From the NCBI GenBank assembly GCA_001972305.1, contig BDDD01005205.1:1-64000 (forward strand): DNA of 64,000 nt, given 5' to 3'. The position numbers and the translations under genes were made by a program. This document shows positions 1 through 61,932 of the stretch, one piece after another. Origin of the DNA: Cephalotus follicularis. Taxonomy: Eukaryota; Streptophyta; Magnoliopsida; Oxalidales; Cephalotaceae. Within the stretch, counting starts at the first letter, position 1, and each line of letters opens with the position of its first letter. The notes under the pieces were generated by a model. It was not told where the DNA came from, made no database searches, and saw nothing but the letters and a program-made list of their open reading frames with translations.

Positions 1-743
1 CCTGAAAAGGTTTATAGCCGTTGCTTAATTTGTGGAAGCCTTTTGATTAAAAAATGAGAGTTGCATTTGTTGAATTTTATCTCTGCTGGTATAAAGACGT
101 CGACTGCTTTGTGAAAGGCGTCGATGTCTTTTAGTTGATAGCCGTTGGAAGTGGTTAAACTAGCCGTTCCATGTTTCCCGGGTGTTGTCCACTTGAAAAG
201 GAGTCGACTTCTTTGTGAAAGGCGTCGATGTCTTTTCTGGGAAATCTCCAGGTCTTGAAGTTTGAACATTACATCGATCTCTTTCCTTGGAGTCGATGCT
301 TTTTCTGGGAATTATGAAAATGGCGTCGATCTCTATATCAAGGCGTCGATGAATTTTACTTGGACGTCGATGTCTTTTGTTTAAGGATCGATGTCTTTGA
401 GTGCAATTTCATACAGTAGCTTCTGGTCCAGAAAATGACTAAATGCGTCGATGTTATCACTGAAGTAGTCGATGTCATCTTGAAAGTAGTCGACATCTTT
501 GGGAAGTAGTCGATGTCTTTTGGTACAGACGTCGATGCCATTACTGGGAGGACGATGTCTTCTTTGCAGTTAATTCTGTACAAAAGACGTCGATGCTATT
601 TGGAAAGGAGTCGACTTCTTTTTCTGCAGATAGGTTTTAGACTTTGATATTCAACTTGTAATTCCTTGCACATCAAGTAAATTAGTTAGATGCAAATATG
701 TTATCATCAAAACAAGGATTGAGACTTAATCGTCAACAGTTAT
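1..743 (+). mobile_element. J1: copia-like LTR, 3' portion
   Basis: The stretch ends near 740 with a TTATCATCAAAACAAGG tract followed by GTCAACA, the kind of 3' end seen in plant Tork/Angela-type Ty1/copia LTRs. The same end recurs in J2 near 7235-7285. The left end lies outside the window. To its right, gypsy pol sequence of element A starts at once, so J1 is probably inserted in A's pol. About 18 GTCGAC/GTCGATG units lie between 90 and 620. No coding sequence is supported. The copia assignment rests only on the terminal sequence. Confidence 0.5.
90..620. repeat. GTCGAC-type palindrome array in J1
   Basis: About 18 units of GTCGAC, GTCGATG or ATCGATG, many followed by TCTTT, are spaced roughly 20-40 bp apart. 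The commonest full form resembles GACGTCGATGTC, a decayed version of the palindrome GACGTCGACGTC. The spacers are not repeated, so this is a dispersed motif cluster and not a classical tandem repeat. Confidence 0.85.
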
Positions 744-3700
744 CAGAGAGAAGAATGTTTCTGCTCTGATCATTTCGTATACTTGAGCACAGAAGTATCT
801 CAAGCAAGGATCTGAAGGCTATTTGGCATATGTGATTGATTGCACGAAAGGTACGCCTAGTATTGAACAAGTTCCTGTTGTATGTGATTTTCCTGCTGTA
901 TTTCCGGATGATCTCACCTCGTTGCCACCGGAGAGGGATATAGAATTCAGCATTGAACTATTGCCTGGGACTGCTCCTATATCAAAAGCTCCATGCCGAA
1001 TGGCTCTTGCTGAATTGAAGGAGTTGAAGACTCAATTGCAGGATTATCTTGATAAGGGCTTCATCAGACCGAGTGTATCACCGCAGGGAGCACCGGTCCT
1101 GTTTGTGAAAAAGAAGGATGGATCGATGCGGCTATGCATCGATTACAGGCTGCTAAATCAGGTAACTGTCAAGAACAAGTATCCTCTACCACATATTGAG
1201 GAGTTGTTTGACCAATTGCAAGGCTCAACTGTATTCTCCAAACTTGACCTAAGAACAGGTTATCATCAGCTGAGGATCCGGGAAGGTGATGTGGAGAAGA
1301 CAGCATTTTGAACCAGATATGGGCATTATGAATTTCTGATACTGCCATTTGATTTGACAAATGCTCCTGCAGCCTTTATGTGTTTGATGAACAAAGTGTT
1401 CCAGCCCTATCTTGACCAGTTTGTCATTATATTCCTAGACGACTTCCTGATTTATTAAAGGGGTATTGAGGAACACATGCGGCATTTAAGGATTGCATTT
1501 CAGACATTGCGGAAGGAACAGCTATTCGCCAAATTCAGCAAGTGTGAGTTTGGGCTGGATCATGTGACTTTCCTAGGTCACATCGTGTCGAGTGAAGGAT
1601 TGTCGGTGGATCCTTCGAAGATAGAAAGTATTGTTGATTGGCCCCAACCGAGGAGCGTTACTGAGGTTCGTAGCTTCTTGGGATTGGCTGGCTACTACGG
1701 AAGGTTCATCAAAGGGTTTTCAAAGCTTGCCACACCATTGACACAGTTGACTCAGAAGAAGTCAAGTTTTGTGTGGGATGATTCTTGTGAGGCAAGTTTC
1801 CAAGAGTTCAAGAGTCGGTTGATTTCGGCTCCAGTGTTGGCATTACCGGAAGGTAAAGTGGGTTTCACTGTCTATACTGATGCTTTTGGGAAAGGATTGG
1901 GATGCATTCTTATGCAACATGGTAGGGTGATTGCATACGCATCGAGGAATCTAAAGCCGTACGAAGAAAATTATCCCGTACACGATCTTGAGTTGGCAGC
2001 CATAGTGTTCGCTTTGCAGAAATGGAGACACTACCTCTATGATGTCCAATTTGAGATCTTCACTGACAATAAAAGTTTAAAGTATTTGTTTTCACAGAAG
2101 GTGCTCAACATGGGACAAAGAAGATGGGTGGAATTCTTTAATGATTATAACTGCAACCTTCAATAAAACCCAGGAAAGGCTAAAGTAGTGGTGGATGCGC
2201 TAAGTCGCAAAGCAATGATTGCTCACGCAATGGTTTCACATTGGAAGCTATTGGAGGAATTTCAGAGATTGAATCCGTTCATGGTTTCTGGAGGAGTTAT
2301 TGTGGGAAATCTTAGAGCACAACCGGAACTCCTGGAGCGTATTCTGAATGCTCAGCACAGTGACACTGAGTTATGGAGTATTCGTGAGAACCTAGACACT
2401 TATTCTGAATTCTCCATTCATACTGATGGCATATTGAGGTTCTGAGGAAGGATATGTGTTCCGGATGACGAGTGCATCAGGGATGAACTACTGTAACAAG
2501 CCCACAAGTCAAAATGGAGTGTTCACCCTAGAAGTTCCAAGATGTGGCATGACCTAAAAAATAACTACTGGTGGAGTGGTATGAAAAGAGAGATTGCTGA
2601 ATACGTGGCAAGATGTTTAACCTGTCAGAGAGTGAAGGCTGAACATCAGAAACCTGCTGGACTGCTACAATCGTTACCAGTGGTTGAGTGAAAATTGGAG
2701 CATGTGACCATGGACTTCGTGTCGGGATTACCAAGGTCACGGAATCAGCATGAAGTAGTGTGGGTTGTAGTGAACAAACTCGCTAAGTCTGCACACTTTC
2801 TTCCAATGAACATGACGTATTCTATCGAGAAGTTGGCTCGATTGTATATCCAGGAGATAGTGAGATTGCATGGAGTGCCGGTCAGTATTGTTTGTGACCG
2901 TGATGCTAGATTCACTTTGAGGTTCTAGAAGAAGTTCCAAGCGGCAATGGGAACAGCATTGAACTTCAGTACTGCGTTCCACCCACAGACCGACGGACAG
3001 TCCGAGCGTACAATTCAGACTCTGGAGGATATGCTACGGGCTTGCATGATTGATTTTGGTGGGAGTTTGGAGGATCATCTGGCACTGATTGAGTTTGCCT
3101 ACAACAACAGCTTTCACACCAGCATTAGAATGGCTCCCTATGAAGCCTTGTATGGGAGAAAGTGCAGATCGCTTATTTGCACGGACGAAGTGGGTGAGAG
3201 ACAAGTGCTGGGACTGGACTTTGTACAAGAGACCACTGATAAAGTGGAAATAATCAAGAAGAGACTGCTAGCTGTACAAAGTCAGGAGAAAAGTTACGCC
3301 GATATCAAGAGGAGAAAGCTAGAATTCGAGAAGGGGGATCATGTTTTCCCGAAGATCTCACCTTCGAAAGGGATACACCATTTTGGCCTCAAAGGGAAGT
3401 TGGGTCCATGGTATATTGGACCTTATGAGATACTGGAAAGAGTGGGGGATGTGGCATGTCAGATTGCACTACCGCCCAGTTTGTCGGGTGTGCATAACGT
3501 ATTTCACGTTTCCATGTTACGAAAATATGTACCTGACCCATCTCACATATTGAGCTACGACCATGGATTCATCAGTAATCAATTGTCTTATGAAGAGAGG
3601 CCGACAAGGACCGTGGATCGAATGGAGAGGGTGCTAAGGAGTAAGACTATTCCTATGGTAAAAGTACTGTGATCTTTTCACAGATCTAAAGAAGTTACGT

Positions 3701-3794
3701 GGGAGCGTGAAGACGAAATGATGGAGACATTTCCTCACTTGTTCAGAATGTAAAGGCTAAATTCGGGGACGAATTTTCTTTAAGGAGGGGGGAA
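744..3794 (+). mobile_element. Element A: Ty3/gypsy chromovirus pol remnant
   Basis: Conceptual translation shows the linker before reverse transcriptase ([21 protein letters not shown]), reverse transcriptase to about 1740, RNase H ([11 protein letters not shown], about 1870-2210), integrase zinc-finger and core (about 2440-3300, with TAFHPQTDGQSERTIQTLED) and the integrase tail with HNVFHVSMLRKY and a chromodomain-like end (about 3440-3750). This order and these motifs fit the Tekay/Del group of plant chromoviruses. Gag and protease are not seen; they would lie left of J1. The pol is broken, with roughly half a dozen interruptions, so it is a fossil. It is followed directly by its own polypurine tract and 3' LTR. 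Confidence 0.93.
3759..3794 (+). promoter_or_regulatory. Pre-PPT inverted repeat and polypurine tract of A
   Basis: Arms AAATTCG (3759-3765) and CGAATTT (3770-3776) flank GGGA, then AAGGAGGGGGGAA abuts the LTR start at 3795. The polypurine tract would prime plus-strand DNA synthesis in reverse transcription. The same arrangement occurs in H, B, D and E. Confidence 0.85.
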
Positions 3795-6404
3795 TGTAAT
3801 AAACGCAAACTTCACTAAATGTATATTGTACCCAATGATGAATAAAATATGCATTGCATTGAGTTTTAGTATCCAATTACTATATAATTTGGGGTTGTCA
3901 AATTGCTTGACTTGAATTAAAATGCAAATGTGATGAAATACACTCAACAAACCAAAACCAGCCTCAAACAACTGACTGTGACAAGGCAACAGTCGACTGC
4001 CTAGTTTATGGAGGAACGGTCGACTGTCACAGGGGAACAGTCGACTGGTTGATATAAGGAGTAGACAGTCGACTGCCAAGTGAATACAGTCGACTAGTAT
4101 GGCACATGACAGGTGTATGTGCACGGCGTGAGATAGAGCAAAGGTGTGGCATGCAATGGACAAGTGTTGCATGCATGCCACCAGCTGTAACTACATGCAA
4201 GGGTGATGCCTTGCATGTCCTCTATTCCTTCTGCAAGACTTGCAGACCTGCAACCTACAAAAATAGGTGAGAAATAGCAAAGAAAGACATGTGCATGTCA
4301 GAGAGGGAGAGAGAGGGGAGAAGGCTAAATTAATGGAATCTGGCGAGTTCTAAGGTTTGAAACCTTTATATCAGCTACTGAGGGATGGAAAGGAGCGTTG
4401 GAAACACTTGAGAGAGAAGGAAACACATTGGACAGTAGCTGTTGGCTAGTGGATACATGTTGAAGGATTGGAGTCCAAAGAAGGAGTTGAAGCTTCGATC
4501 ACCCGGTAAGCTCCAAGTTCTGTTATTGTTGAAGTTATAGTTAAACAATAGCATGTTCGTTCTATAACCCTATTGATTAAACATGAACAAGAACAATAAA
4601 CCTGGAATTTGGGGAGTGATTTTGGGTTAGTTAAGGAATAGAAATGGAACTTATAAAAAATTGATTGTAAGCTTCTGGTTCCGATTATAGTTGTTATCAT
4701 GACTAGATAACTAGATGAACGTACTTGTGTTGATATCTAAACCTGTGTACATGCAAACATATAGATTAATTACTGGATTTTGGAGGATTGAGTTGGGTGA
4801 AGCACTTGGAACTCAAATAGAGGAATCAACTCAATTTGATTCCGGGATAGCAATTGAGGTAGGGGTTTTGACATGTTTTAGAAGATATAATATGTATATC
4901 ATGCCTGGATGTTTTCTGTATGATTGCATGTTATGGACTGATTGAAATTGGATTATGAGCATGCATACTCTGTTTTATTAAACTACTACCTGGCGTTTCA
5001 GGGCAGTAACGAGTCGACTGTTTAATCCCAACAGTCGACTACTCAATCTAACCAGTCGACTATTAAGGACAAACAGTCGACTACCTAATTAAAACAGCCA
5101 GCTATTCTTATGAACAGTCGACAGTTAAGTGACAAAATGCTAAGATTATCTGCTATTAGGCTTATAATTTTGTGTAATTACCCTGGCCTCCACATGGGAT
5201 GATTGTAACTGTCAATCCTGGTCCTATGTAGTTACATTACAGAAAGTAAACAACCTATGCACTCATTGTGAGAATTGTGTAAGGATAACAAGGGTATGAT
5301 AACGTCTTGTTGAACCCTTGAATTGACTGTTCCGCTGCTGTTATTGATGCAGTTATTTGATGTTGTTATACATACTGTATAGCTGTTAAGTGTTCATAAA
5401 TACCATTGTTACACTTAATATTAATGATTGAACCAACTCGTGCTATAAGCACGCATATGGATTTCCCTGTCGTTTTCCAAATGAATTACTGATTTTCCTC
5501 CAATGAGAGGCACCATTAATGTACTGAATACTGTTTCCTCCAAAGAGAGGTACGGTCACTGAATTGTTAAATGTTTCACAAGAGAACAACTTTATATTGC
5601 ATATTATAAACTTATGTAATATTGCTATTGAATTGATTGCATTGTTTGTCTATGCTTATTGCCGTTAGTCGAGTGATAGGAGACATCACTAGCTACGGGG
5701 TGGTCTTATGTGCCAGGAGTTGGCTAGAGCTTCCACCACACTTATCTGCAATACAGATCCTGTTTGTTACCTACCCCCTAATTGCCGGCATAATTGACCT
5801 GATCTATCATCTTCGAAGTGTCTGATGATAGTTAGGTGGTGCACAATTGGTGCTAGGAGTTAGCGACATGTGACACCCAAACCACTGTATTGATTGATTT
5901 TACCCTTGTGCGGTATTCATGAATTGTATTGTCTATGGCCACTTGTCATGTTTGCCTATATATATTTAAATACTTATATATATGTTACTTCAGACAACTG
6001 AAATGCATGTTAATTTATATATTCATTATCATGGTTTATTCCTACTTAGCCAAGTGAGGACAACGGCTAACCCCATACAATTTGAGATTAAGTGAAGTCA
6101 TTCGGGGAAGTGTTGCTGAAGCTTTTGGAAAGCTTCTATTTTGTTAAGGTTTTCATTCATTATGTTTTGTATTGTAACAAACGTTCACACTCCGTTGTTG
6201 TTGATTACTTTTCCTATATGTAAACGGATTATTGTTAGCATTGTATAAGCACGTAGTATGGGCTGCGTGCGGAAAATTTTATAATCCGGCAAATGGAATG
6301 CTTCCGCTAGGTTTAATGAAATTGTTTAAATGTTGAATGCTGGATTATTATTTATGTCTGACATCGCCATGAATGTTGTTTATAACGTAAGGCGGGGTGT
6401 GACA
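3795..6404 (+). mobile_element. 3' LTR of element A
   Basis: A 2.6-kb LTR begins TGTAATAAACGC just after the polypurine tract and ends GGGGTGTGACA. It has two palindrome arrays, a pair of GGAGTTGGCT/GGAGTTAGCG modules (about 5716 and 5858), and the hairpin TTAGCC...GGCTAA (6046-6070). Its family is the same as the minus-strand solo LTR M at 17589-20306. The 5 bases after it are TGTAA; the left partner is outside the window. Confidence 0.9.
3985..5130. repeat. Two CAGTCGACTG arrays in the A LTR
   Basis: The first array is at about 3990-4095 and the second at about 5010-5125. Units are CAGTCGACTG or close variants (ACAGTCGACTA, CAGCCAGCTA), 20-30 bp apart. The same two-array layout is found in solo LTR M. 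Confidence 0.88.
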
Positions 6405-7285
6405 TGTAACCTCTACAAAGGCTGATATAACAGTTTTAAGTATCAAAAAGAAATACTTGAAGATAACTCAAGAACTCTTTGAGAAAATATGAAGACTAGA
6501 ATGCTTTTCTTTGTTATTTGGCTTGCTCTTTTTTACTTGATGATTTCTTCATGGATTAAGCCTCTTTTTATAGCCTTGAGAAGAAAATAGACGTTGCTAG
6601 AGTTTAGGGACTGATCAGAGAGCCGTTGGAGCTATTCAGGGAAAGGATCACCATTACAACACCTTAAAATTTTGCAGATTATGTGTTTAGCTATCATTGG
6701 CGTTGACGTGTTCGAATGGCGTTGACCTCTATCCTCTTATGCGTTGACTCCTATGGTTCTGTGCGTTAACACTTCAAGGATTTCTTCAGCTTCACTTCTA
6801 TTCCCGTTGACGTGCATCCATGGCGTCGACGCTTCTATCATTTGAGTTGACTCCATAATATCTTCGCGTTAACGTCCAAACTCACTGTCCAAAATGTGCA
6901 CCGTTTGCGTTGACGTCTTGATATGTCGTTGACGTCTATAGACAAGGTGTTGACTGCACGTGTTTTCTGCGTTGACGTCCAAGTCATTGACATTGACAAC
7001 TTCCTCAAGGCGTTGACGAAAATCATAATTTCCCAGCTCGTTGACGCTGATAGTGAATGACATTGACGAGAATAATCTTTTCAAGCCTAGAACGCGTATT
7101 CATTCCCAGAACATTGACGCCTAAAATATAAACGTTGACGCCAAAAATACTGATATGCATTTCTAATCTTTCTTTCATAGCAAGTAATCTTAGTTAATGA
7201 TTCCTTCACAACAAACACACATGTCAGGTGTTTTGTTATCATCAAAACAAAGATTGTAACATATAAATGTCAACAATAGCTGTTG
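6405..7285 (+). mobile_element. J2: copia-like LTR, 3' portion
   Basis: It shares with J1 the terminal block around TTATCATCAAAACAA and an ending in GTCAACA (about 7283). It lies between the end of A's 3' LTR and the tail of element H, so A probably inserted into this LTR and J2 in turn sits in H. It carries a dense array of GTTGAC/GTCGAC units at about 6700-7140. The lineage is inferred from the terminal sequence only. Confidence 0.5.
6700..7140. repeat. GCGTTGACG array in J2
   Basis: More than a dozen units, mostly GCGTTGACG(T/C) or CATTGACG, with one intact GCGTCGACGC near 6824. GTTGAC is what GTCGAC becomes after one C-to-T change at the central CpG, so this looks like an older or more heavily mutated form of the array. 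Confidence 0.8.
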
Positions 7286-11330: not shown

Positions 11331-12425
11331 TGGATCCATACCCTACCCTTAGGATATATATATATAGAGCGACACTGTAGACCGATCACACCGCCACGGC
11401 AGGTGTCATGTTCTTCGTGCCAAAGAAACATGCCTATGAGACCTCACAGGTAAGTTTTTCTCGGTATGTTATTATGCCAAAATATTGTTTTATTCTGAAA
11501 ACAATTTAAAACATAAATAGATTTTCCAAACAATTTCTGAACATATCCAAAATCATAATCATATCCGTATCCCAAAATTAACATACTTTCGAAAGTGAAA
11601 GTCATGTTAGAAATCAAAATCAGTATACTTTCGTAAGTGAGAGTCGTACTCGTTTAGCATATTTCTGATAGTGAAAGTCATTCTCCATTAGTTTTATTAA
11701 ACTTTATTCATAAGGAAATTAAACAGAGTTTATAAAACTGAAACAATATCTGATAACAAAATCCGTATATTTTCATAAATCAAAAGGGTAAATAACGAAG
11801 AGTCCGTATCAAAAGATATAGAATTCATTTCAATAAAATCAGATGTCCAATAACGAAAGTGTCCGTACCTTAGCTGCTCAAATAACTAAACAAATCTGAA
11901 TACAGAACAAAACCACACTAGGACTATCCTAACCTCCCCCAAAGATGATATCAAGACCTAAACATTTAAGCCCAAACATCACATAACATAAAAATAAAAT
12001 TATCAAAAACTGCCAGAGAAACCGTCGACGTTATGGACCAAAAGCGTCGACGTGTATGTCAAAAGCGGTGATGCTTAACGTAGGGCGTCGACGGTTTTGA
12101 TGCAGCAAAGGCCAAAAGCGTGTAACAAAGTGTTGACAAAACATAGCATTACACAGTGGAAAGCGTTGACGCTCAACGAATAAGCATTGACGCTTTACGT
12201 CGAAAGCATGAATCCCAGTGCAGAATATCATATGAGAACCATGATCATAATTCTAATTTTCATAAACGTACGTCATAACAGTAATATGCAGGCTTTCAAA
12301 ACATGTCTTCTATGCATGTAAACGTCAGTATAGCATTTATAAACATACAGACATGAAGATAAACAAGTTGAACGCGGCATTAGAATTTTCAAAACATGGT
12401 TTCTTAACAACACGGTTTAGAGTAG

Positions 12426-12457
<32 letters not shown>

Positions 12458-13287
12458 TAGCAGAGTTAAAAGATTCTAATCAGTAATAATAGTGATATAT
12501 TTACAGGTTTTAAAACATGTTTTCTTTGCTATAAAATATCAGTACAACATTTTGATGCATAAATACACAATATACAGGTTACATATATCAATAACAACTT
12601 TGAAAACATATTTTCTAATATCCTAGCAATTTGCATGGATTAACAACTGGGTTTTACATGAAATAAACTGATGTTCATCAATAATAGCAGTATATACATA
12701 TGAAAATAAGATCAGTTTATTATCATTCCTGAAAATGATTAAATGACAGTGCAGAAGACGTTTGCAAAGATGGTGTTTTCAGTTTTTGTAAAATATGCAG
12801 ATGGTGTAGTTTTTAAAGATGATATAATATGAGTTTTAAATGTAAAAACGTACATGTTAATGGTCAAAATCGGTGGATTAAATACATTTTCTTTCATACA
12901 GAAAACGCGTTCAACAAACAAGGAAATCAGATAAACCAAATATGGCAAGAATCCTTTCCAAAAATGAAGCCACTGTCCAAAACAGAAATGGAAAATTCAA
13001 CTTAAGCGTCGATGGTATGCAAAAAGCGTCGACGGTTAAACCTTTTAAAGCCATAAGCGTCGATGCCATAAGCTTAGTTGGTGACATGTTCCACAACACC
13101 AAAGCCGCAACGGTTCTGATGAAGGCATCGATGCTTAACGCCCAAATATTTAAAAGGATTTCCAAAATAAAATCGAACGGTCCAAAAACATAGCACATAA
13201 CAGAAGGCAAAGACATAACATGAGACAATAACACGTAGGTATAGAAACGAGATATTACATTAGTGATCTCGGATCAGGGGCGTTACA
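11331..13287. mobile_element. LTR-derived block I, mixed orientation signals
   Basis: The left half matches solo LTR C read in reverse: GATCACACCGCCACGG near 11390, ATGCCTATGAG near 11430, and GTCCGTACCTTAGC near 11865. The right end reads as the end of a plus-strand LTR (GGATCAGGGGCGTTACA, ending at 13287) and is followed directly by a primer site. Either two LTRs of opposite orientation are joined here or one minus LTR happens to abut an internal region. I cannot place the internal boundary. Palindrome arrays lie at 12020-12200 and 13000-13140, and an AT dinucleotide run at about 12427-12452. Confidence 0.6.
12020..13140. repeat. AAGCGTCGACG arrays in block I
   Basis: About eight units at 12020-12200 (AAAGCGTCGACG, AAAGCGTTGACGCTC, AAGCATTGACGCTTT) and five at 13000-13140 (AAGCGTCGATGG, AAAGCGTCGACGG, GGCATCGATGCTT). 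The arms tend toward the palindrome AAGCGTCGACGCTT. Confidence 0.82.
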
Positions 13288-20306: not shown

Positions 20307-20454
20307 ACATCCTTTTTCATGCACCAGGTGAGGGACACATTTTGGAGCTAGCCTGGCAACACACCAGCGTGATCAACATGTCACTTGTCAAGATGCCTCA
20401 AAAGTTGCCCATTTGCATGTTATTCTGTCAGTGTATAACGTGCTCGATATTCTT

Positions 20455-41840: not shown

Positions 41841-41849
41841 TGTATGTTA

Positions 41850-41887
41850 AGATTTCGGGACGAAATCTTCTTTTTAGGGGGGGTGGA
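41850..41887 (+). promoter_or_regulatory. Inverted repeat and polypurine tract of B
   Basis: AGATTTCG (41850-41857), GGA, CGAAATCT (41861-41868) form a perfect 8-bp inverted repeat. AGGGGGGGTGGA (41876-41887) then abuts the LTR. Confidence 0.9.
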
Positions 41888-44745: not shown

Positions 44746-45227
44746 CTGTGAGATGCATGCAACGGGACAGAGAGGGAAGAAGGATGTGAGACTTGCATAA
44801 AACGCCTCCTCTCTTCATCCCTGGTCCGGATAAAACACCAGTGTAAGAAAACAGAGAGTGAAGGAGAGCCATTATTGAACTTGGTTGGAGCTTGGAGCTT
44901 GGAACTGGTGGCTTGCAGCAACGGGGGGGACCTAGGGGCTGCCGTGACCAGTTAGGAATGCAATGAGGTGGACTTTCCAGTTCCTAACGTGGAACGAAAG
45001 GTAGGGGAAGCCATAACTATAACCTTGAGATTAATATTCATGCATGGTCTATGGTTTTTGTGTATGAAATGCATGATTACTGAGTTGATTTTGTTTACTG
45101 GATTGATGCCATAATATGTTAGATATGTGATGTGTTTCTGCATGTGGTTTACTGCCTTGATTACATGTTAATTTGCATGTATATGGTTTGTTATGGCTAC
45201 TGTCTGTTGTGTCGCGGGGAAGAAGAC

Positions 45228-45565
45228 GACTGTTACGCGAAACACATCGACGCCTTTTTATAACATCGACGTCTTTTGACCATTTACTTGGTTATTGATG
45301 TGAAACGGATCGACGACTTTGGAAAGACATCGACGCCTTAGCATACCTGCCTGAGTTTTGACGTGTTACACGTCGACGTCTAAGGTTCCCTCCTTAACAC
45401 GTCGACGCTGTAAGTAATACGCTGACGTTTTAAGGTTCAAGACCTTGAGCGTCGATGCGTATGATGGACATCGACGTCTTTAGACAGTAGAACGCGCTGA
45501 CACTAAGGACTTGGACGTCGACGTTAATGGACAAAGACATCGACACCTTTTGGATAGACCTCGAC
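45228..45565. repeat. Second GTCGACG array in D 5' LTR
   Basis: About 15 units: ACATCGACGCC, ACATCGACGTCTTT, GGATCGACGAC, CACGTCGACGTC, CACGTCGACGC, GAGCGTCGATGCG, GGACGTCGACGTTAA and others, alternating in GACGTC and GACGCC arms. The homologue in the 3' LTR is split by solo LTR C (52675-52865 and 56055-56135). Confidence 0.9.
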
Positions 45566-46462
45566 GTCTTTTGGTACTGTTTGGAGGTTTCTTCATCTAA
45601 CGATACGAAACGATCCCGATTCCTGTTGGGGTGCATTTGAGCATTTGTATGCATTGCACATACACTATTTACTGCCTGTTTGTGTACTGTTTGTAAATTT
45701 TTTATGATTTCTAAAGTTATGATATTTAGAAATGCATATGTGAGCTCGGAATATGCTATTTTGAGTATGGAAATATGTATTGGTTAATGACGTATTTTCA
45801 AGCGAACTGATAAACGATTTACACTACTGATTTGTTCAAAGTGATTCAACTACTGAAAAATACATTTTCAAAAATTATCACTTTTAAAATATTTTGAAAG
45901 AGAACTGCCTGTTGTCGATCTAAACGATCACCACTGTACTGCTACTGCACTGTTTACTGCCTGGATTCACTGTTTGCTCTATGTTGCTCTGTGAATTGTA
46001 CTGTGTTTGTGCTTGAGCCACTAGTTGCATGGCGGAGACTGCCAGCGCATGCTAGTGGTAGGGTTGAACTAGGGGCCAGGAGTTGGCTGGGTGACTCACT
46101 GTACTGTACTGTTGCCTCGCTTGGTTGCCTGGAGAAGGGACCGAAGTGGGAGTGTAACGTGGGGCCAGGAGTTGGCGGCGTTACACATATTGCCTGACTA
46201 TTGTGGTCCTTTGTGGACATACTGTGCTGCCTGTTGGTCCTTTTCGGACATTACTGTGACTGTGGATGTGATCCTGGCCGGATCACTACTGTACTGTTCT
46301 TGCATACATATATTTTCTTATATATGTACCCACTGCTATTTTTACTGTACTATAAAATATATATATTTCTCATATATATAACCTGGTATTTCCTGCACTG
46401 CATCATTTATGCATACATTACATGACATGCATTTAATGTTGATCCCGAGCTACCTTTATGAC

Positions 46463-46487
46463 TTAGCCGAGTGAGGACAAAGGATAA
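46463..46487 (+). promoter_or_regulatory. Hairpin region TTAGCC...GGCTAA in D LTRs
   Basis: The 3' LTR of D keeps TTAGCC (57022-57027) and GGCTAA (57041-57046) with GAGTGAGGACAAA-like sequence between; the 5' LTR has the same element here in slightly decayed form. It occurs in A, H, F, L and M at the same relative place, about 350 bases before the LTR end. Confidence 0.7.
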
Positions 46488-46891
46488 CCCCTACTTTACA
46501 GATTGATGCAGTGGACCGGTTGGACAGGCATGGGCGAAGGACAAGATGTTATGATGTTCTGTTCTGGGTATTACTTATTCTCCTGTTTTGTTATAAACCG
46601 GGTTTTGTTTAAGGACGGCTGATGTATCGTTCTTGTGTTTTGTTAACAATGGGATGAATCTTGTACTGTAATCACGCTCCGTTTTGTGGGCTTTTAACAT
46701 GTTGAACTTTTTTTGGGTAGCGTGCAGTATGGGATGCACATTACATGTGTTTCAGCTTATGAATTTTATGCTTCCGCAACTGATATCTGTTTAAAAGTTT
46801 AATTTTTATGGTATTTGCATAAGCTGGATTTTTATGTTAATTGCCTTTATAACATTTATGTGTGTCTACCTGAGATCGGGGTGTGACAGCG

Positions 46892-51550: not shown

Positions 51551-51554
51551 TTTT

Positions 51555-51588: not shown

Positions 51589-52674
51589 TGTAACGCCCGA
51601 GATTTCCCTATGTTGTAATTTCACAATGTAATGTGTTTTATTGTGGAATTAATAAAAGAATGGATTTCCAAGGCTTTGATGATGTTTTCCAAACTCTAAT
51701 AATGTTGAATTTTGGAATAAAATGTTAAAGGAATGTTGAGAGGGTAGAACGGCGCTGTTTTTGGAGAAACGCGTCGACGCCTTTTGAATCACATCGACGT
51801 CCTTGAAGCAAGGGGCGCACGTAACTGCATGTACATGCACATCGATGCAGGTGAGGACATCGACGCCCTCGTGTAAAAAGGGGAAAGACGTCGATGGCTT
51901 TGAAGAAGACGTCGATGCGTTTAACATCGAATGTCAGGCACGTTACTCTGCTGACAAATAACGTGCAAGGGGGAACTTTTTAGGGCCTTTTGCAGGCGCC
52001 TTGGGACATGGACGATACGTGTTGAGCACGCTAGCATGATACCAGGCATGCAGGCGCTAGAATGGAAGGAAGGGCATGACACTTGGGTGTGCATGCAGGC
52101 TGTGTGCCACCTTCAACGTCTGCTCCTGCAAAATAAGTGAGGCAGAGCTGGGAAAGAGGGAAGAATGGGAAATAGAGCATGTGAGATGCATGCAACGGGC
52201 CAGAGAGGGAAGAGGGTTGTGAGACTTGCATAAAACTCCTCCTCTCTTCATCCCTGGTTCAGCTAAAACACCAGTGTATGAAAACAGAGAGTGAAGGAGA
52301 GCCATTATTGAACTTGGTTGGAGCTTCGAGCTTGGAACTGGTGACTGGCAGCAATGGGAGGGACGTAGGGGCTGCCGTGACCAGTTTGGAATGCAAAGAG
52401 GTGGACTTTCCAGTTCCTAACGTGGAACGAAAGGTAGGGGAAGCCATAACTATAACCTTGAGATTAATATTCATGCATGGTCTATGGTTTTTGTGTATGA
52501 AATGCATGATTACTGAGTTGATTTTGTTTACTGGATTGATGCCATAATATGCTAGATATGTGATATGTATCTGCATGTGGGTTTACTGCCTTGATTACAT
52601 GTTAATTTGCATGTATATGGTTTGTTATGGCTACTGTCTGTTGTGTCGTGGGGAAGAAGACGACTGTTACGCGA

Positions 52675-52870
52675 AACACGTCGACGCCTTTTTATAACAT
52701 CGACGTCTTTTGACCATTTACTTGGTTACTGATGTGAAACGGATCGACGTCTTTGGAAAGACATCGACGCCTTAGGATACCTGCCTATGTTTTGACGTGT
52801 TACACGTCGACGTCTAAGGTTCCCTCCTTAACACGTCGACGCTATAAGTAATACGCTGACGTTTTAAGGT
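52675..52870. repeat. Second GTCGACG array in D 3' LTR, left part
   Basis: Units CACGTCGACGCC, ACATCGACGTCTTT, GGATCGACGTC, ACATCGACGCC, CACGTCGACGTC, CACGTCGACGC and CGCTGACGTTT. It continues at 56055 after solo LTR C. Confidence 0.9.
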
Positions 52871-53999
52871 TCCAGACCTTGTGTAATACCCCGTTCGTTC
52901 ACGTGCATATTTTCGGATTTTAAATTTGAATTATTTGGTTGCGTTGGCATGATGTGTTCTTTGGGCTATATAATTTTAACTTAGGGCTTTTTGTATTTAT
53001 TAGAATATGAATGTTGGAAAAGCAAAAATTTATTGTTTTCTATTTTAAAATCAGTTTTTAAAATATTAATATGGTTGCTGAATATTAATTTGGGCTTTTA
53101 TGTTTTAGGCTTAAAGACGTTAATTTTGGGCTTTATTATACCAATTATGTTGCCTTTTGGATAATTGATAAAATGTAATTATAAATAAGTAATAATTGTA
53201 GTTGGTATTTTTTTTTATTAAGTGATCAAAATTGGTTTTTAATACAAAAGGATTTTAAAAAGGGAATAAATATTGTATTATGGCAATTTTATTTGATTCT
53301 TTCTATTTCTCTCCCTCTCTTGCACGTTTCTTCCCTCCCTCTCCCGTACTCTTTCTCTCTCCCTCACAAAAACAGATTTATTCCCTTAATTCTCCCCCTC
53401 AATCCCGAATTGTGTGCCTCTTCCCCTATTCCTATCAGATTTTGGATTCTCCTTTCCCTATCTGGTCAAATATTGCCTCATATTTTCTGTTTATATGCAC
53501 AATTGCACATTGTTTATGCCTCACGACTTTGTGGTGCCTGAGAACCGAACCTGCAAGTGAGAAGGCAGTTGTGTTCTTCTTGTTCATCATAACAGGTTGG
53601 TCTCTCTGTTTTTAAGGTTTAATTTGGGTGTTGGTTGCGTGTTCATAGAGGGTACTAGTGAGCTTTGTGTTAATTCCTGCTATGCATGACTTGTTAATGT
53701 TTTGAGATTATTAGTAAGTCCTGGGAAGTCTAGTAATGGTACTAAACTTGTTTTGGATTTAACAGTAAAGGTTTGACAGAAAATTTAACACATGGTTATG
53801 CAAATAAAAAATTGGAACTTGCTTCTCCCTATAAGTGTGATCACCAATTGCATGAAACTTTTGATTCTGGATGTTTAAATGCCACGGTTAAGTCACATAA
53901 GTCTTGTTTAAATGTTGGTAATCTTCTGGTAATGTTGTAACATGGTTTTGACAGAAAAATGGAATTGAATTACTGTGTTTTTGCTGTTCTGTCCCCCAG

Positions 54000-54168
54000 A
54001 ACAGTCGACTGCCTCTTGAAACAGTCGACTGTTTGGCCTTGCACGGTCGACTGGACCCCTGTCCCAGTCGACTGGATTCAACCCAGATTGAGTAGTCGGC
54101 TGCCTATGTTGTGTGGTCGACTGCCACCTTTGAGTAGCCGACTGGATCTTGATGCAATCGACTGGAAT
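54000..54168. repeat. CAGTCGACTG array in C
   Basis: About eight units: ACAGTCGACTGCC, ACAGTCGACTG, ACGGTCGACTGG, CCAGTCGACTGG, GTAGTCGGCTG, GTGGTCGACTG, GTAGCCGACTGG and GCAATCGACTGG. Confidence 0.88.
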
Positions 54169-54844
54169 TGTGCAGGAAATTTATGGTTTCAAGTTTTGTC
54201 ATCCGTTTGGTTTTATAATGAATTGGACCATGTTTTAAGCATTGTTAAATTACTGTTTGATGTTTGAAAGTGATTTTGAACCCTTGTATGAATGGTATTG
54301 TATCTTTTAGATTGTTGTGCTTCGAGGGACTTTTAAATTGTTGATCAATTCGTAAAGTTATTTTGTGATCGCTTAAGGTACGGATCTTCGTTCTTTGATA
54401 CACTCTAGTGATTTTATTAAAATAAATCAGTTATGTGTTTTTGGTGAAAATGTACGGATTTTCTACTCTTTGGCTATCTGATTTTATTGAAACTGTCCCG
54501 TTTTACTTTTAGGATTAAAGTACGGATGTTTCGTTCCTTCATACACTCCTACTGTTTTTATAGTAAAAAGATAGTTTTACTTTATGAATATGTCCCTTCG
54601 ATTTTATGAACTCCGTTATGCTCCGTATTCGATATGTTTTGAAATAAAGTCGGTAGGATATTTTTGTGAAAATAAATATTTCCCGACTTTATATTTGACT
54701 CTGAAATGTTTACGAAATGTTATGCAACCTCGGATGTTTTATAAAATCTGTTTTTACTACTAAAGTTTAATGTCACCGGTTTTATAAACTAAGTATGACT
54801 TTCATATTCGAAAGTATACGGATTTTGATTTTTGATTTCATATG

Positions 54845-54955
54845 GAACATGACTTTCACCTTAGGAAGTTTGTTAAACGGACATGACTTCCACCTTAGGA
54901 AGTATGTTAAACGGACATGACTTCCACCTTAGGAAGTATGTTAACTTTGGATATA
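54845..54955 (+). repeat. Short tandem repeat in C
   Basis: Three copies of a 37-38 bp unit around GGACATGACTTCCACCTTAGG and AAGTATGTTAAAC. Block I has related ACTTTCG..AGTGAAAGTCAT units in reverse near 11585-11680. Confidence 0.8.
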
Positions 54956-56049
54956 CAGAGATATTTCCCACCTATGGGGTGTACCATAGGCACATCGTGG
55001 GCCTGGCACGGGGACGTGACACTTCCGTAGCGGTGTGATTAGTCTACGGCGTCTCTCTATGTTTTGAATAAGTCCCATGAGGTGGACTTATGGATCCGCT
55101 ATCTGATAGAGGCGTATGGATCGATCCTAGGATATGTTATGGATTCGGATTTTGGGGATTGATTGTGTAGTGCCGTACACGTCTTTCCGTCAGAGCCTGT
55201 GGGCCTTGCAAACCCCTTACACTTATGTATATGTACTTTGGATCTCTATTATGAGATATCGGAATCGGATAAGTCTCTGTTATATGTTTTGGATCTCTTT
55301 TATGAGATATCGGAATCGGATATGTTTTGTTTTGAAAAACCTTTTTGACTCGGACAATGTTAAAAAGATTTTGAGTATCATTTTGAATATCGTTTTGGGA
55401 TTTTGATTTGCATTGAAACTTAGACTATGCTTTGAAATCAGGCTTTGCTTTCATATATCGTTTTGAAAATTGGTTAACGTTTTGAGATTCGGATATTAGT
55501 TTTGAATTGATAGAATTGTTTATAATTATTTTATACATGTGTCGTATGATATTTCAAAGTTCAGGTATTTTCTATCTTTTAAATTATCGTTTTATGTTTT
55601 ATGATTCTATATCCGTACTGAGGTTTGCTCAGTCGCGTTTTTGTTTCCATGCGGCAGGTATTCTGGGACAGCATCCGGGCAATGGGCGATGAGCGAGATG
55701 TCACTTATGATAAGGATCACATAGGAGATGGACTTGGTTTTGTTTAGTTATTTTTATGGTCATGTTAGACCCTTATTTGAACTATGTTATGCCTTTTAGT
55801 TTATGTGTTAGAATTATGTTTAAGCTTTTGGTTTATCTTTAAGTTTTCGGTTTATGAATAAAGTTTTCACACTATGTCTTGGATTATAAATGTTATGTTT
55901 AGACCATCACGTAATTTGAATAAAAGATGACTAAAAGATGACTTAATATTTTGAGAAAGAGAATAAAATTGAGCCATGATATAAAATAGGTTATGTTTAG
56001 TTTTGGATTAGGAACCGTGACGACTCCCTCCGAATCAGGGGTGTTACAC

Positions 56050-56135
56050 CTTGAGCGTCGATGCGTATGATGGACATCGACGTTAATGGACAAAGACATC
56101 GACGCCTTTTGGATAGACATCGACGTCTTTTGGTA
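56050..56135. repeat. Second GTCGACG array in D 3' LTR, right part
   Basis: Units GAGCGTCGATGCG, ACATCGACGTTAA, ACATCGACGCC and ACATCGACGTCTTT continue the array cut at 52881. Confidence 0.88.
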
Positions 56136-58014
56136 CTGTTTGGAGGTTTCTTCATCTAACGATACGAAACGATCCCGATTCCTGTTAGGGTGCATTTGAG
56201 CATTATCATGCATTGCACATACACTGTTTACTGCCTGTTTGTGTACTGTTTGTAAATTGTTTGTGATTTCTAAAGTTATGATATTTAGAAATGCATATGT
56301 GAGCTCGGAATATGCTATTTTGAGCATGAAAATATGTATTGGTTAATGACATATTTTCAAGTGAACTGATAAACGATTTACACTACTGATTTCTTCAAAG
56401 TGATTCAACTACTGAAAAATACATTTTCAAATATTATCACTTTTAAAATATTTGGAAAGATAACTGTCTGTTGTCGATCTAAACGATCACCACTGTACTG
56501 CTACTGCACTGTTTACTGCCCAGATTCACTGCTTGCTCTGTGTTGCTCTGTGAATTGTACTGTGTTTGTGCTTGAGCCACTAGTTGCATGGCGAAGACTG
56601 CCAGCGCCGGCTAGTGGTAGGGTTGACCTAGGGGCCAGGAGTTGGCTGGGTGACTCACTGTACTGTACTGTTGCCTCACTTGGTTGCCTGGAGAAGGGAC
56701 CGAAGTGGGAGTGTAACGTGGGGCCAGGAGTTGGCGGCGTTACACATACTGCCTGACTATTGTGGTCCTTTGTGGACATACTGTACTGCCTGTTGGTCCT
56801 TTTCGGACATTACTGTGACTGTGGATGTGATCCTGGCCGGATCACTACTGTACTGTTCTTTCATACATATATTTTCTTATATATGTACCCACTGCTATTT
56901 TTACTGTACTACAAAATATATATATTTCTCATATATATAACCTGGTATTTCCTGCACTACATCATTTATGCGTACATTACATGACATGCATTTAATGTTG
57001 ATCCCGAGCTACCTTTATGACTTAGCCGAGTGAGGACAAAGGCTAACCCCTACTTTACAGATTGATGCAATGTATCGGTTGGACTGGCATGGGCGAAGGA
57101 CAAGATGTTATGATGTTCTGTTCTTGGTTTTACTCCTGTTTTGTAATAAACCGGGTTTTGTTTAAGGACGGCTGATGTGTCGTTCTTATGTTTTGTTAAC
57201 GATGGGATTAATCTTGTACTGTAATCACGCTTCGTTTTGTGGGCTTTTAACATGTTTGACTTGTTTTGGGTAGCGTACAGTATGGGATGCACATTACATG
57301 TGTTTCAGCTTATGAATTTTATGCTTCCGCAACTGATATCTGTTTAAAAGTGTAATTTTTATGGTATTTGCATAAGCTGGATTTTTATGTTAATTGCCTT
57401 TATCACCTTTATGTGTGTCTACCTGAGATCGGGGTGTGATAGTAATACTCGTAACCCATGACATATATTCATTTAAAGGATAGGGACCATTTCATAAAGG
57501 GTCTCATAGGATCCACATCCGTCAAATCATATAAAGATCATTTCATCATCATAAGTCATTTTCCATATCCAATGGCCATTTTTGTGTCCATAATCCATTT
57601 TGTAATCAATTTTTTTCATATATCATTTGGTTGGTCCCTATCGAAGTTATAATGAATGGAAAGGAAGTCCAAATGGAAGTATCCATGCCCAGATGTTCCA
57701 ATGGAACTATCCTGACCATTTGAAGTCCATAAAACAATGGAGAGGAAGTCCAAATAAGATATCCGCGTCTCGATATCTCAATGGAACTATCCTGACCATT
57801 TTGAAAACCATTTAGAAACCATTTGCGTAAAACTCTTTCATTGAGAACTTTCCTTAAAACTTCACTTTGAACATCGATTTAGAAATCAAAACTGATACAT
57901 AAGGATTTCCATAGGTTACAAAGCCTTAGGGAGGCTTTCTATGGAATCCGGTTGAAGATAAAACCATTTTGGATGGAAAACCATGTAAAACAGTGTGTTT
58001 GGGCTGAATAGGGC

Positions 58015-58205
58015 ACTAAGCATCGATGCTTAGCCCCGGGCGTCAACAGTTTTAAAAAGCACAAGTATAAAACATCAACGGTTTGTTTTAAAGCATAAGG
58101 CGTCGGCTGTTCTGTTTAACTCATAAAAGCATCGACTGTAAGTTTAACACATAAAAGCGTCGACAGTTTTTGTTTTGAAAGCATAAAGCGTCGACGGTTT
58201 TGATA
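58015..58205. repeat. AAGCGTCGACG array in E 5' LTR
   Basis: Same seven units as 25278-25475, with differences mostly at CG steps (for example AAGCATCGATGC against AAGCGTCGATGC, and AAGCGTCGACGG against a decayed unit in the other copy). Confidence 0.85.
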
Positions 58206-60344
58206 GAAAATGCAGTTTTTGAAAGAGTTCGTAAATCAACGGAGCTATGTCCAAACCAGTTCAAAGCCCTTTAAGATTTATCCAATTATCCGTGAATTAA
58301 GAGAAGGCAAGAACTCATCTCCTCTTCATTCAATATTGAACCCTTATATCATATGCCATATGCAATTATATATATATACAATCATGCATCCACATAAGTA
58401 CAATTCGTACACATCAATCCATATAATTATTTAGAATGCATGAATGTAATGCAAGCAATAGTATAACCTACCTCATAGCAACTGAGCTCGTAAAGCTCAG
58501 AAATCCTCAATCCTTGATCGTTTCGTTTATCCTTGACCAATTCCTTTATCCTGCATGCACAACATATTTTCGTTACACTCTCCGCAGGAAACCAAGCATA
58601 GCCGCCATCGGAGCTTCGGCCAGTTTCCAGCAACTCATTCAACTCAGGCGAAACCCAAAAACAGGTTCCACAACAGACGATATGTTCAAAACCATCGGAG
58701 GCCTACTGTGACTCTCCATGAATCGCGCAGTCACAGCCGACAGTGAGTCAACTCACTAAGTTGACTCGCCGGACATCCACAATTTCGGCCACTTCACAAA
58801 AGTGTCACAAACAGTCGGCTTAAGGTGTCTCCACCCGTAACTCGCCCTGAATCGGTGCCGAAACGCCCATTCACAGCCGACAGTGAGTTCAACTCACTAA
58901 GTTGACTAACCGGTCGTCCACAACTCTGCCACCACCATAAAAGGCATCACAACCACCAACACTACATATCCTTGCCCTTAACTTGCCGAGACTCAGCACT
59001 AAATGCATGGTCCAAGGCGGCAACGAGTTGGCTCCACTGAGTCAACTCGTCAGTTCGAATCTGGCCATTTACGGCCGAATGGTGCCAAATCGGTCACTGA
59101 AATAGGTGTAGCCGGCCTCCTAGGTGAAGACCGGACCCTCCTGCTACGCTAACCGGTGGTGGAACGCACGACAACGCGTGATAGTGACGGCGTCGGGGTG
59201 GTGAAAATGGGCAGAAAAAGAAGAAAACAGAAGAGAAGAAGGAATGAGGCTTACTGTCGGCAGTGGAGGCTCTGACCGGTGAGCTCCAGGTCCGGCGTCG
59301 TCGTCTTCTCCGGTGCCGAGCTCTCCCTCTCTCCCTTTCTCTCCCATTGGTCTCTCTCCCAATGTCTCTCTCTCTCAACGCGGGCACCTTATGCGCCCGA
59401 GTGTTTCGTTTCTTTTTCTTTTAGTCTTTTGTCTCTCCTTTAGTATTTACCAGCCAAAATACTAAGGCCTAGGTCCCGTTTATTCGGCAAACGACAATAT
59501 TAATTGTCCGAAAGGGTACCAAAATAATCGCAATAAAAATACGAACATAGGGACTTATTGTCGTGCATTAAAAATGGGCTTTATTAGTCATTTTGGGCCT
59601 TATAATTTGCGGCTCCAATACGCGATGCTTTTTATCGATTCGGGCTCCATCGACTCAATACAACCATACACTGTGCCAATATTAAAATAATCATTTATAA
59701 AATTTTGGGCGTTACAATTCAAGTTGATGAAGGAGGGAGAGCTTTTCAGATGTTTAAAGCCTCTCTTTACCCCATTATGCCAAGCTATTGAAACCTGAGA
59801 GGAACTGTGATTTTAGAAGGGAAGAAAACGGTGTATAGAGAAAGAAATAAGAGAGGATTTGTGAGAGAAATAGGGAGAACTTTACCTCCACTATTGAAGC
59901 AAAGGAACTGGGACTTGGAGCTCTAACCTGGACTTGCAAACCGAACCTGGGAAGCTTGGAGGAGCTGTGGTTTGTACTAAAAGAGGTGGACTTATAGATT
60001 CTTAACTTGGAATCAAAAGGTAGGGGAAGTTATATTTGTATTTTGAGCTCAAAGTTACTGGATGTCCTGTGATCGAATGCCTGGTTATATGAATTATGGT
60101 TTCAACTTTTATGACATGGTTAGTGCTGTTTTCGTCTGCATTGCTCACTGTTGAGAATTAAACGAGATTATGTGCATGCATGTTGAGTTTGATCATGGTG
60201 TTGATTTGCTTGATGAAATGCTTGTTAAATGTGGTGTTATATGGACAATATGATAACTAGCACCGATGTTCTGTCCTATGAATATGAACGTATAGCCTAC
60301 AATGATCTGTTTGAGTAGATAGATCCAATTGCACATTGTTGGTT

Positions 60345-60625
60345 CGCTAAGCAGCCGACTATCAAAGGAAGATAGTCGAATACTCAACGGAAACAGTCGA
60401 CTGTCAAGGGAAAACAGTCAACTGCTCATGCGTTATCCTGCCCAGAAAGTGGTGGGAACGTGTATTCTGAGCAATATTATGAATGGTAGTGCAGTTACAG
60501 TCGACTGTTGAAGGATAATAGCCGACTGCCAGATAGACAGCCGACTGGTGAAGGAAACCAGCCAGCTGCCCACGCACTAATCGACCCAGAACAGCCTACT
60601 GGGAAGGAATCTAGCCGACTGTCAG
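60345..60625. repeat. CAGCCGACTG / CAGTCGACTG array in F LTR, second part
   Basis: About eleven units: GCAGCCGACTATC, ATAGTCGAATA, ACAGTCGACTG, ACAGTCAACTG, ACAGTCGACTG, ATAGCCGACTG, ACAGCCGACTGG, CCAGCCAGCTG and CTAGCCGACTG. The middle CCGAC form is commoner here than elsewhere. Confidence 0.87.
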
Positions 60626-61932
60626 GCTGCTGTTTGGACTTCTCTTGCTTAAACGGTGCGCGATGATCCCGATTCTGATTAGGATGCATTAGAGCATTTG
60701 TATGCATTGCATATGTACTGTTTACTGCCTGTAAGTTAACCGTTTATAAACTGATATGATTTCTAAATTATTATATTAATTTAGTAATGCACATATGAGT
60801 TTGAAAACTACTATGTTTGATTACGGAAATATAAAATGAGTATTTTTTATATTTTTGGAACATACTGGGAAAGCAATTTCCACTACTAAAACGGTTTAAA
60901 GTATTTTCTATCTATTGGAAATACATATTTCAAATGTTTACGACTTTTGAAAATAGTTTGAAATGAACTGCCTATTGTTGATCTAACGATCATTACTGTA
61001 CTGTTTAATGCACTGTTTACTACGACTATCCACTGTTTGCTCTGTGAATTTTTCTGTGTTTGTGCTTGAGTCACTAGCTGCGTGGCGGGACTGCCAGCGT
61101 TGGCTAGTGGCAGGGTTGACCTAGGGGCCATGAGTTGGCTGGGTAACTCACTGTACTGTACTGTTGTCTTGCTTGGTTGCTTGGAGAAGGGACCGAAGTG
61201 GGAGTGCAACGTGGGGCCAAGAGTTGGCGGCGTTGTACATACTGCCTGCCTGTTTGTGGTCCCTTTGTGGACTTACTGTACTGTTTGCTAGTCCTTTTCG
61301 GACACTACTGTGCCTGTGTTGTTGCCCTGGCCGGGTTACTACTGTATTGTTATTGCATACATGTATTTTCATATATATGCCCCTACTGTTAGTTTACTAA
61401 ACTGTAAACTTATATATATTTCCATATATATATAAACTGGTGTTTTTACTGTACTGCATCATCCGCACATACATTTCATGACATGCATGTGATGTTGATC
61501 CCAAATTTCTCTTATGACTTAGCCAAGTGAGGACAAAGTCTAACCCCCTACTTTACAAATTGATGGAGTGGACCGGCTTGGGAATCATCATGGATGAAGT
61601 ACAAGTTTTTAATAATGTTTTCACCAGGGGTTAGGTCCCCTTTGGGTGTTGTGTACTTTATTTTCCTGTTACTAGACTTTTGATGTTACTAGATAATGCA
61701 TTATGGATCATTCTCCGTTTTGTGGGCTTTTAACTACGACAGACATGTTTTTGCGTAGCGTGCAGTATGGGATGCACGTTACGTGCTTTTCAACTTATGA
61801 GTTTTAATGATTTCGCAACTGATATCTTGTTTGAAAAGTTGAAATTTTACGGTATTTGCATAAGTTGGATCTTGATGTTAATTGCCTTTACCACCTTTAT
61901 GTGTGTTTATCGAAAGCGGGGTGTGAGAAGAG

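Follow-up and report, generated by a model that had tools for sequence, protein, structure and literature searches.

Why should the long terminal repeats (LTRs) of the retrotransposons in one stretch of the Cephalotus follicularis genome contain arrays of a short palindrome centred on GTCGAC? The stretch, positions 1-64000 of contig BDDD01005205.1 (C5205), referred to here as the window, belongs to an assembly of 1,577,397,061 bases in 9,746 contigs, from which we also took a comparison sample of 25 pieces of 10 kb each on other contigs (L numbers). Self-comparison, element termini and a junction check identify the window as a nest of LTR retrotransposons, in which element X was inserted into W and Y into the left LTR of X; two LTRs of a J family (J1 and J2) and an element at the right end complete the set discussed here (Table 1). 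J1, J2 and X have two arrays per LTR, labelled c1 and c2. In our reading, these arrays are probably enhancer-like LTR platforms of one Ty3/gypsy clade for a dyad-symmetric DNA-binding protein, and they appear to be exchanged between families as cassettes.

The GTCGAC arrays are real, and chance falls far short of accounting for them. The window contains 76 GTCGAC where a first-order model predicts 6.6 (ratio 11.5, the highest among 64 hexamer palindromes) and where 100 dinucleotide shuffles gave a mean of 6.8 (standard deviation 2.5, maximum 12). Strict clusters, defined as at least three exact GTCGAC with gaps of up to 65 bp, number nine in the window and none in the 100 shuffles; ATATAT and TATATA are the only two of the 64 hexamer palindromes that form more. 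For the 25 sampled pieces the figures are 126 GTCGAC against a shuffle mean of 20.8, and 15 strict clusters against none in 30 shuffles. That the arrays are features of LTRs, as a preliminary description of the window had proposed, is borne out by the density of the palindrome, with 44 copies in 23.5 kb of delimited LTRs (1.87 per kb; the limits of the J-family LTRs were set by homology and not by an LTR pair) as against five in 16.9 kb of element interiors (0.30 per kb). Seven of the nine strict clusters lie inside delimited LTRs and two in the rest of the window, whose 27 GTCGAC in 23.5 kb (1.15 per kb) include those of Y-like and other LTR pieces, so that it is no gene control. The count and shuffle comparison suggested at that time thus revealed neither an equal density outside LTRs, judged on the window interiors, nor counts near those of the shuffles, which lay far below.

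In the window and the sample alike, the closest exact GTCGAC pair is at least 20 bp apart, and distances of up to 80 bp fall at 20-22, 27-31, 40-43, 47-50, 60-64 and 69-76 bp, with stray values of 39, 53, 54, 57 and 59 bp in one or two cases each (LTR copies were kept in this list, as in the counts of in-phase variants, LTR-pair mutations and variant flanks below). The units thus do not simply recur every 20-40 bp, as first described, but are spaced at 20-22 bp or, less often, at 27-31 bp; nor do they reach about 18 per array, as runs in the window have 3 to 10 units and the longest run of the sample (L022 717-1140) has 15 sites. The gap order 21, 28, 21 of J1 c1 is found again in L025 and, as 21, 27-28, 21 with variants included, in L007 and L013. 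Genome-wide, GTCGAC pairs occur 105,145 times at 21 bp, 12,877 times at 28 bp and 696 times at 14 bp, compared with 1,224, 65 and 95 for control patterns read backward, and triple arrays with gaps of 10-40 bp number 101,716 compared with 478 (overlapping matches counted). The palindrome CTCGAG gives 308 triple arrays and its backward control GAGCTC 4,748, which indicates that other palindromes can form triple arrays too, if in smaller numbers. The variant ATCGAC, which has an orientation and was counted at 21 bp only, forms direct pairs at 20,492 places (backward controls 188 + 222) and inverted pairs at 9,755 places (76 + 50). As 21 bp equal two helical turns, neighbouring protein molecules would come to lie on the same face of the DNA and could bind cooperatively; such binding is suggested by the minimum distance of about 20 bp and the enrichment of both direct and inverted pairs, together with the flank symmetry and the CpG retention described below.

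The common in-phase variants of the palindrome are all transitions, and mutation bias therefore had to be excluded as their source. At the eight offsets 19-22 bp to either side of a GTCGAC we counted 79 GTCGAC, 34 ATCGAC/GTCGAT, 25 GCCGAC/GTCGGC, 18 CpG-decayed forms (GTTGAC/GTCAAC) and 8 transversion or other variants, while 24 off-phase offsets gave no GTCGAC, ATCGAC or GCCGAC, 2 CpG-decayed forms and 12 others. Three LTR pairs of the window show a transition/transversion ratio of 1.65 (1.19 with CpG excluded); transitions at CpG occur at a rate of 0.164 compared with 0.021 at other sites, about 7.7 times higher. With CpG transitions this fast, plain decay should yield mostly GTTGAC and GTCAAC, which is not what is seen; the site kept by the arrays is RYCGAC. 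Its flanks are symmetric as well, since the -1 and +1 positions agree in 143 of 195 distinct units where 75.8 are expected (identical 34-mers were counted once, which reduced 202 units to 195). They split into two types, A in what we call dialect I (CAGYCGACTG) and C in dialect II (about AAAGAC-RTCGAC-GTCTTT); the 100 distinct oriented ATCGAC sites in arrays read about AAAGAC-ATCGAC-GTCTTT.

The existence of two dialects is the new point of this analysis. Listing RYCGAC variants in the window gave 21 runs with at least three sites, of which one that lacks a regular phase (run 20, 58736-58881) was excluded. Among the remaining 20 phased runs, nine are in dialect I, seven in dialect II, one is mostly in II (292-371) and three are mixed (447-615 and both copies of the W array). 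Pooled flank positions are A in 95/102 and C in 1/102 cases for the nine dialect I runs, and C in 63/68 and A in 0/68 cases for the seven dialect II runs. The core variants follow the same division: both flanks of ATCGAC are in dialect II in 63/93 cases and in dialect I in 3/93, and GCCGAC has dialect I flanks in 23/28 and dialect II flanks in 3/28. The units of W, each of which joins a dialect II half to a dialect I half (for example GGCGTCGACTGT at 25367), are a possible intermediate between the dialects. Another palindrome, GACGTC, ranks second in over-representation in the window and fourth in the first 20 sampled pieces, a rank that it probably owes to its presence in dialect II units.

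The units might function at the RNA level, by pairing with each other in the LTR transcript (dimerisation or hairpins); in favour of this, units of dialect I are self-complementary, and the probable leader contains several arrays. However, ATCGAC as the commonest variant would give A-C mismatches in self-pairing RNA, neither the 20-bp minimum nor the 21-bp phase is readily accounted for in RNA, and the array of L018 lies 230-490 bp upstream of TATATATG, by eye a probable TATA box. An RNA-level function is thus hardly credible.

Selection on the units is suggested by their conservation. In three alignments (J c2 with four copies, Y with three, J c1 with four), with units defined on one copy and measured on the others in a leave-one-out fashion, units are better conserved than spacers. 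The contrast is strong for Y (78.7% identity in units, 50.4% in spacers) and J c1 (91.4% and 62.8%) and modest for J c2 (86.3% and 79.3%); the flanks are 77.5% (J c2), 67.8% (Y) and 72.1% (J c1) identical. CpG dinucleotides are retained inside units in 76, 74 and 87% of cases compared with 25, 60 and 40% elsewhere (J c2, Y and J c1). It is therefore very improbable that the arrays are a passive minisatellite, an old 21-bp tandem repeat which expanded and then diverged without any function: the units persisted, fast-mutating CpGs included, as the spacers decayed, the dialects share their phase but not their sequence, and the variant spectrum is not neutral, even though a bias towards direct orientation and the occasional sharing of spacer words, for instance TTGAGTA ahead of a unit, would fit such an origin. 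The same conservation bears on a host silencing or architectural factor that would recognise the arrays and repress or compact the LTRs. A multivalent chromatin protein of this kind would fit the regular phase and the genome-wide abundance, but the elements would gain by losing its sites, and yet the sites outlast the spacers and occur in each LTR of a pair that is 98.8% alike (L025); we consider this explanation quite unlikely.

The preliminary description had placed the arrays in nearly every LTR and in unrelated copia and gypsy families, and neither statement was borne out. Judged by reverse transcriptase (RT) sequences, compared over 231 columns, the arrays for which a coding sequence could be assigned come from a single Ty3/gypsy clade, the decayed W being unsure: the RTs of eight carriers (J1, L007, L010, X, Y, the right-end element, L026 and L015) are 62-92% alike, and W is 37-50% identical to them. 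We also considered W as a distant lineage, its pieces being 31-42% identical to Y. The 121 residues of its RT that can be aligned come closest to X (50%), however, so that W more likely belongs to the same clade in a decayed state, with nil tree support for its place (0.062). All readable pol sequence of the window is Ty3/gypsy, with gypsy-type domains in the scanned open reading frames (ORFs) of Y, X and J1 (in Y gag, RVP_2, RVT_1, RNase H, integrase and SH3_Tf2-1), and a tblastn search with 13 open pieces from the copia loci L030-L035 found no copia coding sequence in the window at E values up to 1e-4. At these loci themselves, whose LTRs are only partly in view, no GTCGAC was seen. The copia pol of L018 (984-3870) was examined as the owner of the array at 5438-5691 and not credited with it, because a separate gypsy-type LTR start, TGTAATGACCCGG near 5254 (by eye), lies between. 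GTCGAC is absent from the LTR pair of L017 (99% alike) and from the 10 kb of L008, L011, L014, L016 and L021, which contain other gypsy or copia pol pieces. No strict cluster is present in L008, L011, L016 and L028, whose gypsy pieces have 32-42% RT identity to Y. It would not be safe to call the L016/L028 lineage array-free, given weak RYCGAC-type runs in both: L016 has two runs of three sites, none an exact GTCGAC, and L028 has five sites at 2062-2211 just behind the pol piece (one exact, mostly C flanks) and four at 6786-6925. With carriers from one clade, much of the sharing of arrays may be due to common descent plus exchange and not to convergence.

Sister families that are 85-90% alike in RT carry different dialects, in non-homologous arrays at the same LTR position. 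The RTs of J1, L007 and L010 are 90-92% alike (90% for J1 and L007 against L010), and L010 shares the J LTR in blocks (L010 2902-2981, 3501-3660 and 4212-5051). J1 and L007 use dialect I in both arrays of the LTR, L010 dialect II in both (C at 7/8 flanks in 3075-3250; C at 7/10 and A at none in 3765-3915). Likewise, the right-end element (dialect I, A at 13/14 flanks) and X (dialect II, C at 11/12 in c2) are 85% alike in RT, and their LTRs match at 59980-60029 and 52395-52443 and again from 60630 on, with the array in between unmatched. In 7/7 LTRs with two arrays (J1, J2, L007, L013, L025, L010 and X, representing about three independent families) both arrays share one dialect. A second line of evidence is the array of Y, which matches c2 of J1, J2, L007, L013 and L025 over 71-127 bp, spacers included, in inverted orientation relative to the LTR; the inverted cassette common to the Y and J families comprises about 93 bp. 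When spacers were shuffled for 26 arrays in both orientations (60 shuffles each), the inverted match reached z values, among the best 45 matches listed, of 10.5 for L025 with Y and 7.6 for L025 with the Y-like stretch; L013 gave 5.5 and J1 4.9. On this showing the arrays appear to behave as modules with free orientation, and the exchange of regulatory cassettes, one of two possibilities raised earlier for their sharing, gains support from the inverted cassette as well as from the non-homologous arrays of the sister families. Whether c1 and c2 are inverted copies of each other was also considered and rejected: in X they score 49 either way (reached by 0/200 shuffles inverted and 1/200 direct), and no such likeness was seen in J1, J2, L007, L025 and L010.

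From this we infer exchange as the route of dialect change. Families might even switch dialect by replacing both LTR arrays together, as if they followed, or partitioned among themselves, paralogous trans-acting factors; such a helically phased two-dialect retrotransposon code read by host factors is an attractive but tentative idea, which we regard as somewhat doubtful. The dialect difference between sister families, the mostly pure arrays and the retained CpGs also resemble the targets of VANC proteins of VANDAL elements, and might point to an analogous anti-silencing system, in which a trans-acting factor would land on the arrays and strip methylation from the LTR, the dialects being co-evolved pairs of factor and target. 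But VANDALs are DNA transposons, and the three scanned ORFs of Y, other copies being too decayed, showed only gag and pol domains and no VANC-like gene, with no profile search aimed at one; this alternative seems improbable to us.

We return to the proposal that the arrays are binding platforms with an enhancer-like role. Each unit, with its RYCGAC core and one of two flank dialects, would be a binding site read with two-fold symmetry, and the arrays, which seem to adjoin the LTR promoter in the U3 part, the leader or both, would most likely raise or protect LTR transcription. By exchanging or replacing whole array cassettes, inverted ones included, families would change from one of two binding specificities to the other. 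The protein is most likely a transcription factor of the host, and the two dialects suggest two paralogous binders. The earlier idea of a DNA-binding protein target agrees with this, as phase, dyad symmetry and retained CpGs make the sites look the part. The identity of the protein, its host origin and the activating sign are what we infer, the last from where LTR enhancers act and from the interest of the elements in keeping the sites. By eye, X and J1 have one array about 185-330 bp and the other about 1.1-1.3 kb into the LTR, the two flanking what is likely a first exon (with a GT splice donor), and in Y the array follows TATATAAG, a TATA-like box at 42348, by about 700 bp. As to the binder, CRT/DRE elements are stress-gene promoter sites bound by a monomeric AP2 domain, and a CBF/DREB-type AP2 protein is the best named candidate because the cores listed for it are GTCGAC and RYCGAC; among the sites considered, which included those of MYB, WRKY, ARF, bZIP and NAC proteins, only that of CBF/DREB matched both core and variants. 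Even so, we think this identification more probably wrong than right by a wide measure.

Several observations weigh against a symmetric enhancer platform that moves as a cassette. Direct ATCGAC pairs exceed inverted ones about 2 to 1, and variants within clusters are mostly co-oriented (128 same, 50 opposite, 89 expected; repeat LTR copies removed via five start positions), so that the site has some directionality, or else the arrays owe their shape to local duplication. The contrast between units and spacers is small in J c2. J2 and L007 are not among the best 45 inverted matches, and z values near 5 are also reached by low-score pairs without other likeness; with the weaker values of J1 and L013, the weight of the inverted match rests on L025. 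Several arrays are situated downstream of the likely TATA box, which is unusual for a simple upstream enhancer. An AP2 protein would need one oriented site only and not an 18-bp symmetric unit. Finally, a silencing factor could leave the same footprint, though the selection that keeps its sites would then be hard to explain.

Table 1. Retrotransposons and phased palindrome runs of the window
Feature	Positions	Strand	Remarks
Two GTCGAT-rich runs 5' of J1 pol	292-615		First (292-371) mostly dialect II, second (447-615) mixed
J1 3' LTR	3796-6404	+	Gypsy, pol 769-3669; polypurine tract, then TGTAAT at 3796 (by eye); end by homology
J1 array c1	3992-4094		Dialect I, 5 units, gaps 27, 21, 28, 21
J1 array c2	5013-5122		Dialect I, 5 units, gaps 21, 21, 21, 41; inverted homology to Y array
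Array	12024-12092		Dialect II, 3 exact GTCGAC; decayed units on to ~12170
Run	13008-13064		Dialect II, 3 sites, 1 exact
J2, J-family LTR copy	17589-20306	-	Limits by homology
J2 array c2	18900-18989		Dialect I
J2 array c1	20059-20133		Dialect I
Run	20464-20585		Dialect II; stretch 20396-20812 (minus) matches start of X LTR
Run	23071-23123		Dialect I, 3 sites, 2 exact
W LTR	23334-26998	-	Self-comparison, termini; other copy 30362-31739 + 57442-59716
W array	25287-25429		Flanks half dialect I, half dialect II; gaps 20, 32, 28, 29, 28
Element X, nested in W	31740-57441	+	5-bp target duplication GTAAT; self-comparison, termini, junctions
X LTR copies	31740-32333 + 44747-46889; 51589-52881 + 56049-57441		
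Element Y, nested in X left LTR	32334-44746	+	Target duplication CTGTG
Y LTR copies	32334-33170 + 35297-37088; 41888-44746		
Y coding parts	37543-38526; 38565-39830; 39840-41777		gag; protease-RT; RNase H-integrase
Y array	43046-43248		Dialect I, 9 RYCGAC-type units; left-copy equivalent 35623-35825
X array c2, left LTR copy	45246-45544		Dialect II, 10 sites
X array c1	51773-51916		Dialect II; about 185-330 bp into LTR
X array c2, right LTR copy	52680-56124		Dialect II; split by Y-like insert: 52680-52840 (6 sites), 56057-56124 (4 sites)
Y-like LTR stretch without interior	52882-56048	+	Right end is where X resumes
Y-like stretch array	54004-54162		Dialect I, 8 units, gaps 20-22 and 28
Right-end element LTR piece	59717-61926	+	pol 62948-64000; sister of X, RT 85% alike
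Right-end element array	60350-60619		Dialect I, 7 RYCGAC-type sites, 2 exact, plus decayed units

Homologues of the J1 LTR are present in L007 and L013 in addition to J2. The Y-like LTR stretch interrupts array c2 in the right LTR of X, with junctions at 52881 and 56049. The words TGTACTGT and ACTGTACT are repeated, with 17 copies each in the window, and are visible in the LTR of the right-end element at 60950-61330. Positions 21578-22341 of the window hold a tandem duplication of about 400 bp with copies 73% alike, and L023 contains a tandem array at 536-1846 with a period of about 163 bp and units 86-88% alike. L014 (1-10000), with a gypsy pol fragment at 5280-6682, has a G+C content of 19.5% compared with 33-49% in the other 19 pieces compared.

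The literature searched contained no report of GTCGAC arrays in Ty3/gypsy LTRs, and palindromes treated in PMC6911290 concern insertion sites, a separate matter. For CBF/DREB sites, the table in PMC9138379 lists CRTDREHVCBF2 as GTCGAC and CBFHV as RYCGAC, a core and tolerated variants identical to those kept in the arrays; phased symmetric arrays or two flank dialects, in contrast, are not among what that source describes in the part concerned. If the binder should be a stress factor of this type, the arrays would link retrotransposon bursts and about 100,000 dispersed site pairs to host stress regulation. Whatever its identity, the array signature (RYCGAC, 21-bp phase, two dialects) is a sequence-level clue to a trans-acting protein on which the retrotransposons may depend, and could be used as bait, while sister families that differ in dialect at one and the same LTR position amount to a natural specificity-swap experiment.

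The nearest precedent in kind are the repeated motifs of Sirevirus LTRs, portrayed by Bousios et al. (2010, PMC2829016) as palindromic, CpG-rich boxes in high copy near the promoter, with family-specific flanks on a common core. The arrays described here are likewise palindromic boxes in high copy, clustered in plant LTRs, and the box given there for a Vitis Sirevirus, CGGTCGACCG, even contains GTCGAC. However, Sireviruses are Ty1/copia elements with a CGG-CCG core (Tnd-1 excepted), and their motif is reported in that account as absent from the classic retrotransposons compared, whereas the carriers in the window are Ty3/gypsy, as far as their pol can be read, the core is RYCGAC, mostly with A or C at -1, the units are phased at 21 bp, and the probable promoter can have arrays on either side. 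In evolutionary behaviour the nearest precedent are the VANC targets of Arabidopsis VANDALs, which PMC5735166 presents as short motifs repeated in non-coding parts of transposable elements, differing between related elements and bound by one protein family of diverged specificity that the element itself encodes. The motif similarly differs between close families in our case (J1 and L007 compared with L010, the right-end element with X); the VANC motifs given there, YAGTATTAY and AGTTGT[CA]C, are unlike our units not palindromes. Neither precedent, as described in these sources, is matched in full. If the two-dialect code should prove true, it would represent an LTR counterpart of VANC target evolution that uses host factors, with about 100,000 phased site pairs in this one genome.

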